From: a virus
DNA: 24,423 nt
Direction: 5' to 3' (one strand)
IMG/VR virus record: IMGVR_UViG_3300028025_001197
Location: 1-24,423 of that record
Shown here: in pieces, positions 3,194-21,406 of the stretch
How the letters are laid out: every line of letters begins with the position of its first letter
How positions within the stretch are numbered: position 1 is the first letter of the stretch
Program-made: the position numbers and the translations under genes
Notes under the pieces: model-generated
Seen by the model: the letters and a program-made list of their open reading frames with translations, nothing else
Told to the model about the DNA's origin: nothing
Database searches by the model: none

Positions 3194-3466
3194 TCATTGT
3201 TCACCATTCTGCAATGGTATATCTTCCGTATTATCTATTCTTCTGTAACCCTCGTGCCATAAGGTTTTGGTGAGAATTACACTCTTTCTTATGACTTCCT
3301 CCTCATCATCCTCTGGAGCCAATATGTGACAAATTTCGTGTATCAATATCTCCATTGCCTTGCGACCTTTGAGCCGAATGTCTATCTCAATCAGCTCATC
3401 CGAATGAGCCAATCCCCAAGCCTTTTGCTTACCAAGTTTGCTATATTGTACTTTTATCCGCTTCAC
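3194..3466 (-). CDS. Small HExxH metallopeptidase-like protein
   Basis: The 90-residue protein has the zinc-metallopeptidase signature in LIHEICHILAP (about 41-51), with two His ligands and the catalytic Glu. An acidic run follows (EDDEEE, about 52-57) that could provide a third ligand. The helix before the motif (KGRKAMEILIHEICH) and the DELIEID strand fit the minimal core of ImmA/IrrE- or SprT-like peptidases, but the protein is shorter than those families, and the substrate is unknown. Its ATG overlaps the stop of the DEDDy exonuclease gene (ATGA), so the two are co-translated. It is the last gene before a terminator. Confidence 0.65.
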   Translation of the reverse strand: MKRIKVQYSKLGKQKAWGLAHSDELIEIDIRLKGRKAMEILIHEICHILAPEDDEEEVIRKSVILTKTLWHEGYRRIDNTEDIPLQNGEQ

Positions 3467-4482
3467 TTTGCAGTAGGGATTAGTAAGTGTCGCTTTTGTT
3501 TTATTGTGGCTGCTCCTAGCCTCTTCCTTGATACACTATTGCAGTTATCACATCTAAATAGTTCGTAAATATTAGCACTGGTGTTATAACATTTGCCTTG
3601 ATCCTTCAGTTCACTACTACCGCAACTTGGACACCTATGCTCGGTCTCATCTAATATAAATAGCCCCATATTTGGGTGTGGCTTTATCCAAGGTCTAATT
3701 TGTAAGTATGTTTCCTCTAATATTCTCACGTCTTGTACGTTGTAATCCTCCATCTCTTTTAGTGCCTTGCGGTCACCCTTCATACAATTATCCCAAAGCT
3801 CAAATGATGTCTCTTTTTTGCGCTCTAGGTTAAGCAATTTGTTGACGTAATCTAACTTATTACTGGTAAAACCAAACTGCCTTCTAATGTGCCGTAATGT
3901 GTCTATAACTTGATAAGGGAGTGGTGGGTTGAGACCATTTAAGATAAACCTTGAGTTAAGACGAGGGATGTCAAACTTCTCAGCATTATGCGCAATCACA
4001 ATATCCGCCTCATTGACCAACCTCCAAATCCCTTGCATTATTCTCTTATCATCTTGCTTGGCTACTTCCTCAGGCTTTAGTTTGGCTGAATATACCTTGT
4101 CCTCAAATAGCCACTTGGCTGCCCAAGTTAGGCAGAACCAATCACTTTTAATTTGTGGCAAGTGTATGTTCTGATTCCATATCCCCCAAACGTAAGCTGA
4201 GATAGGAGCAGTCTCGATGTCAAGAATAAGGACCTTTGCGGATGTTTGGATTTTCTCCATCTTGGTATTTGAAGTGTCGTAAGTAAGTGGTTGCTGGTGA
4301 GTTCTATCTTTAAGTTTCCTTCGATTTTTTTCACCTTGTGAACCACGATAATAATTTATCGCACATCTAACGTTGTGTAATTTCAAATCGCTATGATCTT
4401 TACAAATAATTGCAGCAAGAGTGTAGCTTTTCATCTTTGGATATAGGTCCAAATATGGCTTTATCAACTCTCCTATTCTCAT
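3463..4482 (-). CDS. DEDDy 3'-5' exonuclease with C-terminal zinc ribbon
   Basis: The 339-residue protein contains a DnaQ/RNase H-like exonuclease domain of the YprB/RNase_H_2 type. Exo I is LILDIETAP with Asp88 and Glu90, Exo II is IVIAHNAEKFDIPRL with Asp171, and Exo III is YNVQDVRILEETY with Tyr247 and Asp251, the Y-x3-D spacing of DEDDy enzymes. A C-terminal zinc ribbon follows (Cys284, Cys287, Cys311, Cys314). The first 60 residues look like a helix-turn-helix-type region and may bind nucleic acid. No polymerase domain is present, so it is a stand-alone nuclease, possibly for DNA processing or host DNA degradation. It overlaps the spanin-like gene upstream and the HExxH gene downstream by four bases each. 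Confidence 0.85.
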   Translation of the reverse strand: MRIGELIKPYLDLYPKMKSYTLAAIICKDHSDLKLHNVRCAINYYRGSQGEKNRRKLKDRTHQQPLTYDTSNTKMEKIQTSAKVLILDIETAPISAYVWGIWNQNIHLPQIKSDWFCLTWAAKWLFEDKVYSAKLKPEEVAKQDDKRIMQGIWRLVNEADIVIAHNAEKFDIPRLNSRFILNGLNPPLPYQVIDTLRHIRRQFGFTSNKLDYVNKLLNLERKKETSFELWDNCMKGDRKALKEMEDYNVQDVRILEETYLQIRPWIKPHPNMGLFILDETEHRCPSCGSSELKDQGKCYNTSANIYELFRCDNCNSVSRKRLGAATIKQKRHLLIPTAK

Positions 4483-4928
4483 CTGCGCTTAATGATGTAA
4501 ATAACACCAGCGATTAATAGTATCCAACCCCAAGTGATTAATGCACCTTTCTGCCACCATCTATACATCTTCTCGGTTGCAGCTGCATCTTTCTTAGCCA
4601 GTTCATACATCTTCTTGTATCGGTCCACAAAAATCTTCTTGTCGACTACAACAATGGAGTCCTTGCAAGGCTTTAATACCTCTTTAATCCTCCATTTCGT
4701 TATTTGCTTGTCAACAAACTTATACTCTGTAAACCAATTATACAAGGTGTCGGTTATTTTATTAATAACCAGACTATCCCTTGTAATAATTGCGGTGTCG
4801 TGAACATCTTGGAAGATAAACACCTTCTCAATAGCTTCAGGATGCTTTTGGAAGTACCTATCAATTTTCTTCTGCGTGATGCAAGAACTAAACAAGATAA
4901 TGCAAACTAATAAAGTTTGGTTTTTCAT
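4479..4928 (-). CDS. Probable unimolecular spanin (lipoprotein with C-terminal TM)
   Basis: The 149-residue protein starts with a short signal peptide and a lipobox-like site (ILFSSC, Cys16), so it should be lipidated and sent to the outer membrane. It ends with a hydrophobic span (GALITWGWILLIAGVIYIIK, 128-147) and KRR, which would stay in the inner membrane. The middle 110 residues are charged, with a likely helix around 97-126. An outer-membrane lipid anchor plus a C-terminal inner-membrane anchor in one chain is the topology of u-spanins such as T1 gp11 (134 aa), which fuse the two membranes in the last step of lysis. The endolysin gene is close upstream. The function is inferred from topology and position; the lipobox has Phe at -3, which is acceptable but not ideal. 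Confidence 0.6.
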   Translation of the reverse strand: MKNQTLLVCIILFSSCITQKKIDRYFQKHPEAIEKVFIFQDVHDTAIITRDSLVINKITDTLYNWFTEYKFVDKQITKWRIKEVLKPCKDSIVVVDKKIFVDRYKKMYELAKKDAAATEKMYRWWQKGALITWGWILLIAGVIYIIKRR

Positions 4929-4939
4929 AAGTTTGGATT

Positions 4940-5062
4940 CTATTCGGCTTCCTTCTGCATCGCCTCAGCGATTTTCTGATTGATTTCTGCTAATTGCTTT
5001 TGCAAGTATTCGATCTGAGCTAAACAGTCATAAGCACTTGCTTTTAATTCTTTGATATCCAT
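4940..5062 (-). CDS. Small coiled-coil protein, 40 aa
   Basis: A 40-codon ORF runs from ATG 5062..5060 to TAG 4942..4940, between the endolysin and spanin-like genes. The product begins MDIKELKASAYDCLAQIEYL and continues as one amphipathic helix with heptad-like Leu/Ile/Ala spacing and an acidic end. It fills most of an otherwise empty 155-base gap. Short coiled-coil proteins of this type occur near lysis genes in Bacteroidota phages. The function is unknown; a lysis accessory role is only suggested by position. Confidence 0.55.
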   Translation of the reverse strand: MDIKELKASAYDCLAQIEYLQKQLAEINQKIAEAMQKEAE

Positions 5063-5083: not shown

Positions 5084-5734
5084 TTACAAAGATTTCAACA
5101 TATCTATCATCTTTGGGTGTGGATAAATATCTATTTTATCCATTCTTACCGAATTATGGGTATAAACCCCCTTTTCTCCAGCGAGTGCACGTGGGCAAAT
5201 ATCCCAAATGTCCTCATTATACTTAAGAGGTATGCCATACCTTTCCTTCCAAAGCAGTAATAACTGCCTCACCGACTCTATCTGCGCATCGGTATAATTA
5301 TGGAAGTATTGCTTACCCTTATATTTTTTGGCAAGTTTAATAACTTGCGATTCTGGCACTACACCCCCAACATAGTTATAGTACTTGCCGTCTTTTTTGG
5401 TTAAGTAACCCCAATTACATATCTCAATGCCGATGCTGATGCGGTCTAGTGACTTGTATTTAACACCAAACTTTTGGAAGGTTGCTTCTTGTAAGCCGAG
5501 GTGGAATGCCCAATACTTGGATGAGAATCCTTGCACTATCTCTCCGTCAGTGCAGCCTCTACCTATGCCCGATATTGTGACACAAGTAGCCACTCTAACG
5601 GGTGTTCCCTCCCAGTGCTTGTACACAAGCTCCCCGTTGTGGTTACCAGCAGTGTGATGGAGGTAGATCTGCTTCTTAGGATGCTCTTCCTTGATGTATT
5701 GAGACTCCTTAAAAGGCACTTGTCTAATATTCAT
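5084..5734 (-). CDS. Endolysin, N-acetylmuramoyl-L-alanine amidase (Amidase_2)
   Basis: The 216-residue protein has the T7-lysozyme/PGRP amidase fold: IYLHHTAG with His26/His27 (first zinc ligand), the core ISIGIEICNWG with Glu104, and the end THNSVRMDKIDIYP with His193, Lys200 and Asp202 in the place of the second His and the third metal ligand. It cuts the bond between N-acetylmuramic acid and L-alanine in peptidoglycan. No signal peptide and no cell-wall-binding domain are seen, so it should need a holin for release. Holin-like and spanin-like genes are in the same transcript on either side. The gene starts 23 bases after the second fibre gene. Confidence 0.9.
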   Translation of the reverse strand: MNIRQVPFKESQYIKEEHPKKQIYLHHTAGNHNGELVYKHWEGTPVRVATCVTISGIGRGCTDGEIVQGFSSKYWAFHLGLQEATFQKFGVKYKSLDRISIGIEICNWGYLTKKDGKYYNYVGGVVPESQVIKLAKKYKGKQYFHNYTDAQIESVRQLLLLWKERYGIPLKYNEDIWDICPRALAGEKGVYTHNSVRMDKIDIYPHPKMIDMLKSL

Positions 5735-10624: not shown

Positions 10625-10960
10625 TTATGATGTTATTTGGTCTAACACTTGAACGTATCCATTCATATAAGTAAACGTGCCAGATGGATTAGTAACTTGC
10701 AAGTCATAAGCGAACTCGCCAACACTATAAGTAGCCGTAGTAACACTTGACAAGGTAACACTTCTCTCATTCGTAGCACCTACTACAAAGTCGGCATTAT
10801 TCCAAGTGAACTGAGTAGCACCAGCACTATTCTTAGCCATTAACTTAAATGTCCAGGTACTTACATTTATAGCAGTGGTCTCACACTCATCACTATAAAA
10901 CTTCAAGTTCATATTGTAAGTGTCACCTCTTCTAATAGCTTTTAAATTATGTTCGCTCAT
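10625..10960 (-). CDS. BppU N-terminal-like baseplate/fibre attachment protein
   Basis: The 111-residue protein has an RGDTYNMNLKFYSDE start (11-25), a TWTFKLMAK strand (35-43) and a TATYSVGEFAYDLQV segment (75-89). This is the pattern of the Ig-like N-terminal domain of lactococcal baseplate protein BppU and related small phage proteins, which attach fibres to the tail tip. The rest of BppU is missing, so this is a stand-alone domain. It lies just before the large fibre gene, which supports an adaptor role. Its ATG overlaps the end of the coiled-coil membrane protein gene by four bases. The family assignment is from pattern only. Confidence 0.6.
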   Translation of the reverse strand: MSEHNLKAIRRGDTYNMNLKFYSDECETTAINVSTWTFKLMAKNSAGATQFTWNNADFVVGATNERSVTLSSVTTATYSVGEFAYDLQVTNPSGTFTYMNGYVQVLDQITS

Positions 10961-11178
10961 TGTCTATCTGCTTTATCTTTTAATTTTAATTGTATGTCTT
11001 GCAAAGCATCAAAAATCTTCCCTAACTTCTCACCAATCTCATCCTCCTTCTTCTCTAGGGTGCGGACACGAAGATCAAGTTCTCTCAACTTAATCTTCAT
11101 ATCCGTAAACATCTTCGACAATGCCATTGCAAATGCAATAGTCTGAATAATAATTGTCACAATCACCCCTTGCTCCAT
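10957..11178 (-). CDS. Membrane-anchored coiled-coil protein, possible holin partner
   Basis: The 73-residue protein has an N-terminal membrane segment (GVIVTIIIQTIAFAMALSKM, 4-23) followed by one long charged coiled coil (LRELDLRVRTLEKKEDEIGE and on, 32-70). The sizes resemble XhlA-type lysis accessory proteins, but with the membrane segment at the opposite end. It follows the holin-like gene, and both lie upstream of the fibre genes. A lysis role is plausible; a structural anchor is an alternative. Confidence 0.5.
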   Translation of the reverse strand: MEQGVIVTIIIQTIAFAMALSKMFTDMKIKLRELDLRVRTLEKKEDEIGEKLGKIFDALQDIQLKLKDKADRQ

Positions 11179-11183
11179 CTCAA

Positions 11184-11342
11184 TTACTTTTTAGCATCTT
11201 GAGCAAAAATGCCAACTAATAGCATTCCTATACCAGCTAAGACCATTTTCCAATCTTGAGCCAAAGCACCTTCCCAAATCATTGGCAATCCAGCTACTGC
11301 TCCAAAAAGGCTTGTCTTTACGTTTTCCATCATTTGTTTCAT
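11184..11342 (-). CDS. Small holin-like membrane protein, 52 aa
   Basis: A 52-codon ORF runs from ATG 11342..11340 to TAA 11186..11184 and fills the only sizeable gap in the tail region. After a short polar start the product has two hydrophobic segments, SLFGAVAGLPMIWEGALA (11-28) and MVLAGIGMLLVGIFA (33-47), and ends in the charged tail QDAKK. Two segments in a very short chain fit a class II-like holin, and the genome needs one because the endolysin has no signal peptide. Very similar short proteins are found in Bacteroidota phages near tail genes. The second segment is the only strongly membrane-spanning one, so the topology is uncertain. Confidence 0.55.
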   Translation of the reverse strand: MKQMMENVKTSLFGAVAGLPMIWEGALAQDWKMVLAGIGMLLVGIFAQDAKK

Positions 11343-18709: not shown

Positions 18710-19684
18710 TTATCCGTTGTATTTATTAACTTCTTCTCTGAGCCACTGCTCAAACTCATCAAGTGCTTTTCTTGGGTCGTGTTCTCTTGCTCTTCCTTTT
18801 GCTTTTTTAGATGCTGCTGCATAGGCTTTGGCATCGTCAAGTTTCGTAATTTCTTTAACCCAGCTTTCAATATCATTTCTATCCTTTATAAATATTCCAG
18901 CCTTTCCACAATTCTCTTTCAATCCTTCTGCCTGACTGCTTATAACTGGTATCCCACTACTCATTGCTTCTGTTGCAGTCATTCCCCAACTCTCATAAGC
19001 ACTCGGCATTAATAGTATCCTTGTTTGCTTATAAACGGAAAGTATATCAGTAGTTTTGTTAATATAAGTAATGTTTGGTAAGTTTGAAACCTCTTGGTCA
19101 CCATAAGAACCTTTTACACCTAAAAACTTTTTATTAGGCATTGCCTTTGCTATCTCTTCAAATATCTTTACACCTTTATTCTCGTTCAAGTTTATAAGTG
19201 TAATGTATTGATTATCAATCGTTTCTACATTAGTATCATAATCACGATAATCAACTGGTGGTGTGAGTATAAAGTTACTCCATTTATAACCCAATTTCTG
19301 TTTTGCCCATAAAGAGTTATACACTATATGTTGAGAAGTATCTGCATTCTCAATCTCAGGATATAAATGAGTATTATGGATAAGATGAAACAAAGGCTTT
19401 CTAAACATAGCAGCCATTCCTATTGTCCATCTTGTGTAGTCTAAGTGCGTAAAAACGCAGTGACTCCACGAAAATAAGTTCTGAATTACGTTTTGATTAG
19501 GCGGAAATACATCCACACCATCGTAAGTATAAGTATTAGTAATCTTATAATGATTAGCTTGATGCAATAACACTCTTACGTGGTGTCCTTTGCTTTGTAA
19601 ATGCTTTATAATCCTATGAGCCATCATCTCTGCACCACAAAGATGCTGAGGAGGATATAAGTGTATGCTAAAAAGTATGTTCAT
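18710..19684 (-). CDS. GT4-type glycosyltransferase (GT-B fold)
   Basis: The 324-residue protein has a GT-B arrangement. The N-terminal Rossmann half contains MNILFSIHLYPPQHLCGAEM (1-20, with the GAE motif of acceptor-side loops) and HLIHNTHLYPE (100-110). The C-terminal half has the retaining E-x7-E motif PSAYESWGMTATEAMSSGIP (227-246; Glu231, Glu239), where the nucleotide sugar binds. It would transfer an activated sugar to an unknown acceptor. The place between the methyltransferase and the connector gene, within the structural module, suggests virion protein modification, but DNA or host envelope glycans are alternatives. It overlaps the methyltransferase gene by 17 bases, so the two form a unit. 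Confidence 0.85.
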   Translation of the reverse strand: MNILFSIHLYPPQHLCGAEMMAHRIIKHLQSKGHHVRVLLHQANHYKITNTYTYDGVDVFPPNQNVIQNLFSWSHCVFTHLDYTRWTIGMAAMFRKPLFHLIHNTHLYPEIENADTSQHIVYNSLWAKQKLGYKWSNFILTPPVDYRDYDTNVETIDNQYITLINLNENKGVKIFEEIAKAMPNKKFLGVKGSYGDQEVSNLPNITYINKTTDILSVYKQTRILLMPSAYESWGMTATEAMSSGIPVISSQAEGLKENCGKAGIFIKDRNDIESWVKEITKLDDAKAYAAASKKAKGRAREHDPRKALDEFEQWLREEVNKYNG

Positions 19685-20186
19685 AGTTATAGTTTACATA
19701 ATATCCGTAATGCTCATTATTGAAAAGTAATTGCATCATTGGATATCTTTCGATAAATATTTCGTGTGTTAAATCATCTTGACGATGCCTTTCATATTCA
19801 TTACCTCCAACATCACCTTGTGGCATTTTGTATGGAACTGCTACCATACAATAAATATTATTATCATTTATCTTTTTAAGTAATGAAGTTGCATTGTCTA
19901 TTGGCAAATGCTCAATTACATCACCCATAATTAAATAATCATACAAAAATAAATTTAATTCTTGCACATCGCCAATGTAAACGCATCTATAAATATCATC
20001 TAATTTAAACTGCTTACGATATGGCTCAAATATCTCTATTGCATCAATTTTTGTAAAATCTTCTTTTAGTAAATTACCATAAGTACCGCAACCAGCACCA
20101 ACATCAAGTATGTCAATGCCAATCCTAAAATTATTAAATAAATGCTCCCTAAATTCTTTCTTAAAATAATCGTAACTAAATGGCAT
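19668..20186 (-). CDS. SAM-dependent class I methyltransferase
   Basis: The 172-residue protein (from ATG 20186) has SAM motif I LDVGAGCGTYG (27-37), an acidic motif II end with AIEIFEP (49-55), a motif similar to motif IV, GDVIEHLP (88-95), and VAVPYKMPQGD (115-125) with ERHRQDDLT (132-140). This pattern is found in sugar- or small-molecule methyltransferases such as those in glycan synthesis loci. An earlier in-frame start would run back through the capsid terminator and into the capsid gene, so ATG 20186 is preferred. It is very AT-rich (16 G/C in the 60 bases 19861..19920). It overlaps the glycosyltransferase gene; the two probably build or cap one glycan. Confidence 0.8.
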   Translation of the reverse strand: MPFSYDYFKKEFREHLFNNFRIGIDILDVGAGCGTYGNLLKEDFTKIDAIEIFEPYRKQFKLDDIYRCVYIGDVQELNLFLYDYLIMGDVIEHLPIDNATSLLKKINDNNIYCMVAVPYKMPQGDVGGNEYERHRQDDLTHEIFIERYPMMQLLFNNEHYGYYVNYNYEHTF

Positions 20187-20192
20187 ATAAGT

Positions 20193-20222
20193 AAAAATAA
20201 GGGGAGAGATTTCTCCCTCCCC
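20193..20222 (-). terminator. Strong intrinsic terminator after the capsid gene
   Basis: On the minus strand a nine-pair stem with one G-T pair and a GAAA loop (20201..20222) is followed by TTATTTTT (20193..20200). It lies 14 bases after the capsid stop and just before the methyltransferase start. It should end most transcripts there and leave partial readthrough for tail genes, or require antitermination or another promoter. Confidence 0.85.
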
Positions 20223-20236
20223 AATTATTATAAACC

Positions 20237-21406
20237 TTAGATTGCTCCGTAGATAGCAGCTGAAGGTTGGAACTGAAGAAGTTCGCAACGAGCTTCTGCT
20301 CTGAAAGTGATAAGGTTCTTGATGAAATCATCTTGGTCGAACTCTGTTGAACGAACTGCAAGACCGCTTTGCTGAGCAATAGCGAACTTAGTAGTGTCCA
20401 TAACGTAGATCTTAGAAGCAGTAACCAAAGAGTGAGGAATAACTGGTACACCTACGATTCTTACGTTACCATTGTTGTCGATAACCATTCCACCAGGAAT
20501 TGAGTAGTCAGCTGGTTTGGTTTTCAACAAGTTTGCCCAACCAGCGTGAGTGGTCAAAGCAAGGTTTGGAGTCCAGTTCAATGCACCAAGTTGTGCAACG
20601 TAATCAATGAACTTCTCAGCGGTGTTAGCACCAGAAGAAGAACCAGCAGTTGCAGAAGATGCGATAGCGTTAAGATAATAAGTATCTTCAGCCTTCTGGA
20701 AATCTTCAATCAATGACTGCTGCAAATATGCTTGTAAGAATGGCAAATCATCAATCATCTGACGAGATACTTTAGCGTAACCAGCGATGAAAGACAATGC
20801 AGTGTTTACAACTGTTACATCGTAATCAACTTGTGGCTTAGCAGAACCTTCAGTTTGCTTACCGAAAGAACCTTCACCTACTGGAGTGTTACCTCTTGGG
20901 AAAGATACAGAACCAGTTGATACTGGGATGATGTTGAACACACTTCTAAGGTGTGGGTTAACGAAAGAACGCAATGCTGGGTTATCTACATAAGATGTGT
21001 AAACAGAACCAGTCAAGTTGTTAGCAATGGTCATAACTCCAACCGCTTTCAAATCGATGTCAGCAGCGAAGCCCTTGCCATTGTTTCTTGCAGCAGCTTT
21101 GATTTCGTTCCAACCTTTCTCGATTGCAGAACCAATCTCAGCCTTGATGTTGTTAACGTGATCAGCATAAGAAGTAGCAACTTTCTTCTCTGCGTTTGCG
21201 CTCAACTTACCGAAAGCAGCCTTAGCTTCTTTCACTTCATTAAGTGCCTCAGCAAGAGTCTTGTTAGATTTCTCCATTTGCTCGTTGATTTGCTCTACTT
21301 TAGAGTCAAATTGCTTTGCAGCCTTCTCGGTTACACTTGCAACCTCAGCCTTTTGTTCTGCCAATTTTGATTCGAGGGCAGTCTCGAATGCTTTTAAATC
21401 GCTCAT
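20237..21406 (-). CDS. HK97-type major capsid protein with delta domain
   Basis: The 389-residue protein has an N-terminal coiled-coil region of about 105-125 residues rich in Lys/Glu/Ala (AEQKAEVASVTEKAAKQFDS and on), typical of the HK97 delta domain that scaffolds the prohead and is cut off by the protease. The mature HK97-fold part follows: VYTSYVDNPALRSFVNPHLR (135-154), SVSFPRG (166-172), the helix YAKVSRQMIDDLPFLQAYLQ (210-229) and the end LITFRAEARCEL near 365-377. There is no separate scaffold gene, which fits. It is richer in G/C than the neighbours (27 of 60 bases at 20581..20640), as expected for a highly expressed gene. A terminator follows directly. Confidence 0.9.
   Translation of the reverse strand: MSDLKAFETALESKLAEQKAEVASVTEKAAKQFDSKVEQINEQMEKSNKTLAEALNEVKEAKAAFGKLSANAEKKVATSYADHVNNIKAEIGSAIEKGWNEIKAAARNNGKGFAADIDLKAVGVMTIANNLTGSVYTSYVDNPALRSFVNPHLRSVFNIIPVSTGSVSFPRGNTPVGEGSFGKQTEGSAKPQVDYDVTVVNTALSFIAGYAKVSRQMIDDLPFLQAYLQQSLIEDFQKAEDTYYLNAIASSATAGSSSGANTAEKFIDYVAQLGALNWTPNLALTTHAGWANLLKTKPADYSIPGGMVIDNNGNVRIVGVPVIPHSLVTASKIYVMDTTKFAIAQQSGLAVRSTEFDQDDFIKNLITFRAEARCELLQFQPSAAIYGAI

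Follow-up and report, generated by a model that had tools for sequence, protein, structure and literature searches.

A putative unimolecular spanin family with an invariant periplasmic cysteine beside exchangeable endolysin genes in Bacteroidota phages

Unimolecular spanins (u-spanins) of Bacteroidota phages have been recognized before. A 2018 table already includes those of Cellulophaga and Flavobacterium phages (PMC6139136, Table 5), others were predicted in 2021 in the isolates Ingeline and Nekkels (PMC8776804), and a 2025 survey has Bacteroidetes phages using 'exclusively' u-spanins (PMC12596118). The initial annotation of the locus described below, which called the spanins of Bacteroidota phages poorly studied, was in this one point worded too strongly. 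A case that bears on exclusive use is B40-8, which we take to be a Bacteroides phage. PMC6139136 lists it under two-component spanins, and for this reason the statement of PMC12596118 seems too broad. In the u-spanin model outlined in PMC6139136, the protein forms a bridge that draws the membranes together once the wall is cut, and the layout of the candidate reported here fits that model. What is new is not the kind of protein but the sequence family, the exchange of endolysins beside its gene and an invariant periplasmic cysteine, Cys88; no description of the family was found in the open-access literature.

The window, i.e. the whole stretch of DNA that was analyzed, is a virus record of 24,423 bases that carries no completeness estimate and may be a fragment. 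We put the probability that its 149-aa protein (Table 1) is a u-spanin at roughly 0.82, judging from the ORF, its motifs, its conservation and the gene neighbourhood. The initial annotation had proposed the same function, which is supported by the topology, by the adjacency of an endolysin gene in 18/18 family records and by purifying selection. The ORF at the annotated location is real, although its strand had been left out: it lies on the minus strand, and the plus-strand frame read there has stops. As first described, residues 13-16 of the minus-strand ORF read FSSC, a lipobox by rule with Cys16 at its end, and a C-terminal membrane segment, GALITWGWILLIAGVIYII (residues 128-146, hydropathy 2.17), is followed by KRR. 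This is a single C-terminal transmembrane (TM) segment, and it is located in the same chain as the lipobox. Two AlphaFold models of the candidate were both poor (pLDDT 46.6 and 48.9); the C-terminal helix (residues 105-148) is present in both, while periplasmic residues 29-104 have pLDDT below 50 in both, and the corresponding domain of T1 gp11 is predicted to be beta-rich.

Table 1. Positions of the candidate u-spanin, its predicted parts and other features in the window
Feature	Position	Strand	Basis or remark
DNA-polymerase exonuclease-type gene (PHROG 403), 3' of candidate; not a lysis gene	3463..4482	-	ATGA overlap with candidate stop
Candidate u-spanin gene, 149 aa, stop included	4479..4928	-	ORF reading and conservation
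Basic tail KRR, predicted cytoplasmic	4482..4490	-	Sequence
Predicted C-terminal transmembrane segment, residues 128-146, after Trp124-Trp125	4491..4547	-	Hydropathy, alignment, models
Predicted periplasmic part, residues 17-127 (~111 residues), mature +2 to +6 = ITQKK	4548..4880	-	
Periplasmic Cys88 within L-x-P-C-x-D-S-I, invariant 18/18	4665..4667	-	Family alignment
Lipobox Cys16, predicted lipidation site, invariant 18/18	4881..4883	-	Family alignment
Predicted signal peptide, residues 1-15	4884..4928	-	Sequence and rule-based lipobox
40-aa ORF between amidase and candidate	4940..5062	-	Recurs before GH19 in relatives
Endolysin, N-acetylmuramoyl-L-alanine amidase (Amidase_2)	5084..5734	-	Pfam E 5.2e-10
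73-aa ORF, N-terminal TM, charged, probably helical tail	10957-11178	-	Weak PHROG 7686 'Rz-like spanin' E 0.0043
52-aa hydrophobic ORF, candidate holin	11184..11342	-	Look-alikes in related phages; role inferred

In viral_contigs, five scans that started from the protein, its amidase, protein alignments or the exonuclease yielded 17 further family records with proteins 42-96% identical to that of the window (alignment A4), and the 18 members comprise 17 distinct proteins. None of the 18 members lacks the lipobox cysteine or the C-terminal membrane segment, and 28 columns are invariant across the 18 records; Cys16, Cys88 and, near the start of the membrane segment, Trp125, Trp133 and Trp135 are the same in every member. 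Scanning the candidate against Pfam, PHROGs and NCBIfam gave no significant match, tblastn with the candidate, and likewise with three look-alikes from other loci, found nothing at E<=1 among 50,697 phage records, and the family alignment retrieved no relative from genome_contigs. The prediction that a sequence search would give no link to known spanins was thus borne out, both by the profile and BLAST searches and by the comparison with T1 gp11. On sequence grounds, the candidate family is a new sequence family of a known protein kind. Homology to the L043 group was considered but not shown, the hhalign value of 61.6% covering 19 columns at the signal peptide; in shuffles restricted to the periplasmic part, the Z values of the window family were 2.6 against the L043 group, 3.5 against L161, 2.8 against L141 and 5.5 against L155. 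Better-looking pairwise BLAST values were set aside because they came from a 13-sequence database without composition correction.

The gene had been described as lying near an endolysin gene, and the Amidase_2 gene was indeed found 155 bp upstream, with the 40-aa ORF in between. An endolysin gene is upstream of the candidate homologue in 18/18 family records, i.e. the homologue occupies a lysis-cassette position, and the holin is not adjacent in the window. The upstream endolysin is an amidase in three records (the window, L001 and L002) and an unrelated GH19-type enzyme in 15/18, the latter identified by PHROG 181 'endolysin' (E 4.9e-62), with Pfam GH19 just below the cut-off. One of the 15 GH19 records, L007, has both enzymes in the order amidase, 40-aa-type ORF, GH19, spanin. 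Both precede the spanin gene there in one cassette (L007:8001-9826), whereas the window and the other relatives have just one of the two close to it, so that the amidase may be what remained in the window lineage after a loss of GH19, and the reverse may have happened elsewhere. In L166 about 0.7 kb lies between the GH19 and spanin genes, and a 237-aa ORF is located there according to L095 (same contig). The small ORF of the 40-aa type precedes GH19 in 14/15 GH19 records, contig L167 ending before it, and is conserved in the lysis region of 17/18 family records with L167 as the one cut off. The gene 3' of the spanin is the exonuclease in 16/18 records and, in L171 and L172, an ORF that we labelled phosphoesterase-like by reading the sequence by eye; the endolysin-spanin pair is retained while the downstream partner changes. 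The exchange of unlike endolysin enzymes in one slot, with the spanin retained, supports a role in lysis.

The 52-aa ORF of the window is likely a holin gene, to judge by sequence, since look-alikes of 51 aa in related phages extend into the 5' end of an M15-type endolysin gene (e.g. L102:3350-3505); it lies ~5.5 kb from the window amidase. A 90-aa ORF at 3194-3466 (minus strand) has a HEICH motif and matches a SprT-like Pfam family very weakly (E 0.33), and its look-alikes follow the exonuclease or the phosphoesterase-like gene in L003, L171 and L172. Glycosyltransferase-like and methyltransferase-like ORFs (by eye) are found at 18710-20288 (minus strand) among the head genes, directly after a probable capsid gene.

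A wider pattern emerged with a topology rule, our own and crude, that asks for a lipobox within 45 residues and a hydrophobic segment near the C-terminus. Across the exonuclease- and amidase-keyed loci, 20/34 distinct cases of lipobox + C-terminal-TM ORFs are situated no more than 250 bp from a same-strand endolysin gene, compared to 98/1080 other ORFs of 90-260 aa (odds ratio 14.3; Fisher p 2.7e-12, which is too small because related sequences are not independent). For this count each set of identical proteins entered once and shadow ORFs were left out, and related sequences were kept. Endolysins were recognized by tblastn with ten queries from the same loci, seven of which were Pfam-scanned (two Amidase_2, GH19 just under the cut-off, M15_4, Phage_lysozyme, CHAP and M15_3; all but L135, L153 and L157). 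Proteins of the same layout also adjoin other endolysins, namely M15 (L161), phage lysozyme (L132), CHAP (L152) and Amidase_2 (L043 group).

Other counts weigh against the u-spanin reading. From a total of 75 exonuclease-keyed loci, 12 with less than 700 bp upstream were dropped and 63 examined; the rule detects a spanin-like ORF within 1.5 kb in 26 of these and none within that distance in 37, of which 23 have an M15 endolysin and one, L097, is a true family member that the rule missed. Only 10/80 amidase-keyed loci have a spanin-like ORF within 1 kb. That no spanin-like ORF stood next to the M15 endolysin looked at first like counter-evidence, but when nine M15 records, chosen by us among the 23 M15 loci, were searched whole with A4, a spanin-like gene was found elsewhere in four (the whole-record search also took L007, L003, L165, L141 and L161, and 7/14 matched overall). 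Among the four M15-lineage matches, the one in L171 clearly belongs to the family and has a GH19 gene next to it, and L193-L195 encode a protein of 163-164 aa with a lipobox, periplasmic cysteines and a C-terminal TM, the gene in L194 directly following an ORF of 46 aa similar to the 40-aa one.

Some antisense ORFs pass the lipobox + C-terminal-TM rule too, and one could ask whether the candidate is non-functional as a protein or combines the two motifs by chance. This is extremely improbable, given that the rule is passed by 141/100,000 composition-preserving shuffles of the 149-aa protein, that 28 columns are invariant over 18 records and that dN is far below dS in the Nei-Gojobori comparisons with L001 (0.017/0.214) and L003 (0.118/0.845), silent sites being saturated in many of the more distant family pairs; the gene is therefore under protein-level (purifying) selection. 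Among the minus-strand ORFs listed as probable window genes, 1/31 passes the rule. A two-component spanin, in which the 73-aa ORF would be the i-spanin and the 149-aa lipoprotein a modified o-spanin or a protein unrelated to lysis, is very unlikely. The 73-aa ORF is found in L007 as well and both copies match PHROG 7686 (E 0.0035 in the L007 relative), but these scores are weak and on par with those of unnamed PHROGs for the 73-aa ORF, its gene is ~6 kb from the candidate, a C-terminal TM would be superfluous for an o-spanin, and the window has no separate small sense lipoprotein. The initial annotation had seen no separate i-spanin/o-spanin pair, and we agree as far as this possibly fragmentary record extends, which holds no other credible sense lipoprotein and, in the 73-aa ORF, a protein only weakly Rz-like.

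Phages do encode lipoproteins of the exclusion or masking type. The candidate might accordingly act on the envelope in a different way, for instance in superinfection exclusion or receptor masking, and adjoin the endolysin gene through chance operon structure, a possibility with which the 70/80 amidase-keyed loci that lack such a gene within 1 kb would agree. We regard it as unlikely, because the inner-membrane C-terminal anchor is kept in 18/18 members and a surface or outer-membrane-only protein needs none, because the surface-export motif is absent, and because the gene stays by the endolysin despite swaps of endolysin type and downstream gene. The surface-export signal of Bacteroidota lipoproteins is K-(D/E)2 or acidic (PMC5080379). 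The mature N-termini in the family (+2 to +6: ITQKK, VTQKK, VTTKR and others) are without the acidic signal; the candidate should thus face the periplasm, as a u-spanin anchor requires.

If it is a u-spanin, Sec would export the candidate, which, once lipidated at Cys16, would be delivered to the periplasmic face of the outer membrane, while its C-terminal helix would remain anchored in the inner membrane and KRR would lie on the cytoplasmic side, such that one chain would extend across the periplasm, with a periplasmic span of ~97-113 residues. After the candidate holin has opened the inner membrane and the amidase the wall, the spanin would be freed and may cluster or collapse, whereby the outer membrane would be fused or ruptured against the inner one. 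Lipidation, topology, timing and membrane fusion are here all modelled on general knowledge of spanins.

None of the 58 u-spanins in the 2018 survey has a periplasmic cysteine, according to that paper, which concludes that no covalent dimer is needed (PMC6139136). The window family departs from this cysteine-free description, Cys88 being present in 18/18 members. At least one periplasmic Cys occurs in 19/20 endolysin-adjacent spanin-like proteins (family members included), and Ingeline_6 gp12, Nekkels_1 gp70 and phi10:1 gp004 have one each; there is none in T1 gp11 or in the Flavobacterium phage proteins 11b gp49 and FCL-2 gp19, the latter two being entries of PMC6139136 as assigned by us. Phage phi10:1 is named in the u-spanin table of PMC6139136, and gp004 may be the protein meant there. 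The spanin-like proteins of phi10:1 (L207:758-1231) and Nekkels_1 (L202:40598-41071) are 92% identical, and the single periplasmic cysteine of each fits poorly with the no-cysteine statement of PMC6139136. Cys88 probably cross-links two candidate chains, through a hypothetical disulphide modelled on what is known of spanins. A broader and more tentative proposal, to which we give somewhat less than even odds, is that disulphide-clamped u-spanins are widespread in Bacteroidota phages, with Cys88 and the periplasmic cysteines of other spanin-like families linking two chains as needed for outer-membrane disruption. If true, the disulphide rule of two-component spanins would extend to these one-chain spanins, contrary to the published conclusion. 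The invariant Cys88 makes the published claim that u-spanins need no covalent dimer directly testable.

The Bacteroidota host suggested at first is supported by the amidase, whose 14 relatives in genome_contigs are all in MAGs named Flavobacteriia, Flavobacteriales, Lishizhenia, Chitinophaga or Sphingobacteriaceae; the best matches of the window amidase among isolated phages are Tenacibaculum phages. The lysis proteins thereby gain a sequence family that escapes standard libraries, and its context (the endolysin slot, a lipobox, a C-terminal TM and a Trp preceding it) provides rules that may help to find more of them in uncultured Bacteroidota phages.

Compared to the prototype u-spanin, T1 gp11 (L175:3582-3980, annotated 'Rz-like spanin'), the candidate is alike in its N-terminal lipobox, C-terminal TM, basic C-terminus and size (~130-150 aa), and the T1 gene directly follows the endolysin gene. 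The sequences differ, BLASTP giving no match at E<=100 and hhalign 14.9% over the N-terminal 27 columns, and T1 gp11 belongs to PHROG 1804 whereas the candidate does not. Flavobacterium phage 11b, which stands among the u-spanins of PMC6139136 Table 5, has in gp49 (the protein meant, by our assignment) a 154-aa protein with a lipobox and C-terminal TM, encoded directly after a GH19 endolysin gene in the order seen in 15/18 family records; homology to the candidate is not detectable beyond the signal region (hhalign 28.8% over 11 columns; periplasmic shuffle Z -0.7). Cellulophaga phage proteins Nekkels_1 gp70 and phi10:1 gp004, which we assign as spanins and whose records carry no spanin label, resemble the candidate in size (157 aa) and in having a lipobox, a C-terminal TM and one periplasmic Cys, which in them stands in a C-D-S-V context, but their periplasmic parts are not significantly similar to it (Z 1.3 and 1.2, respectively), and the Nekkels_1 gp70 gene is ~1.7 kb from its GH19-like gene. 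Lambda Rz/Rz1, which depends on a periplasmic disulphide (PMC6139136), joins the inner and outer membranes, as proposed for the candidate, with two chains where the candidate would use one.
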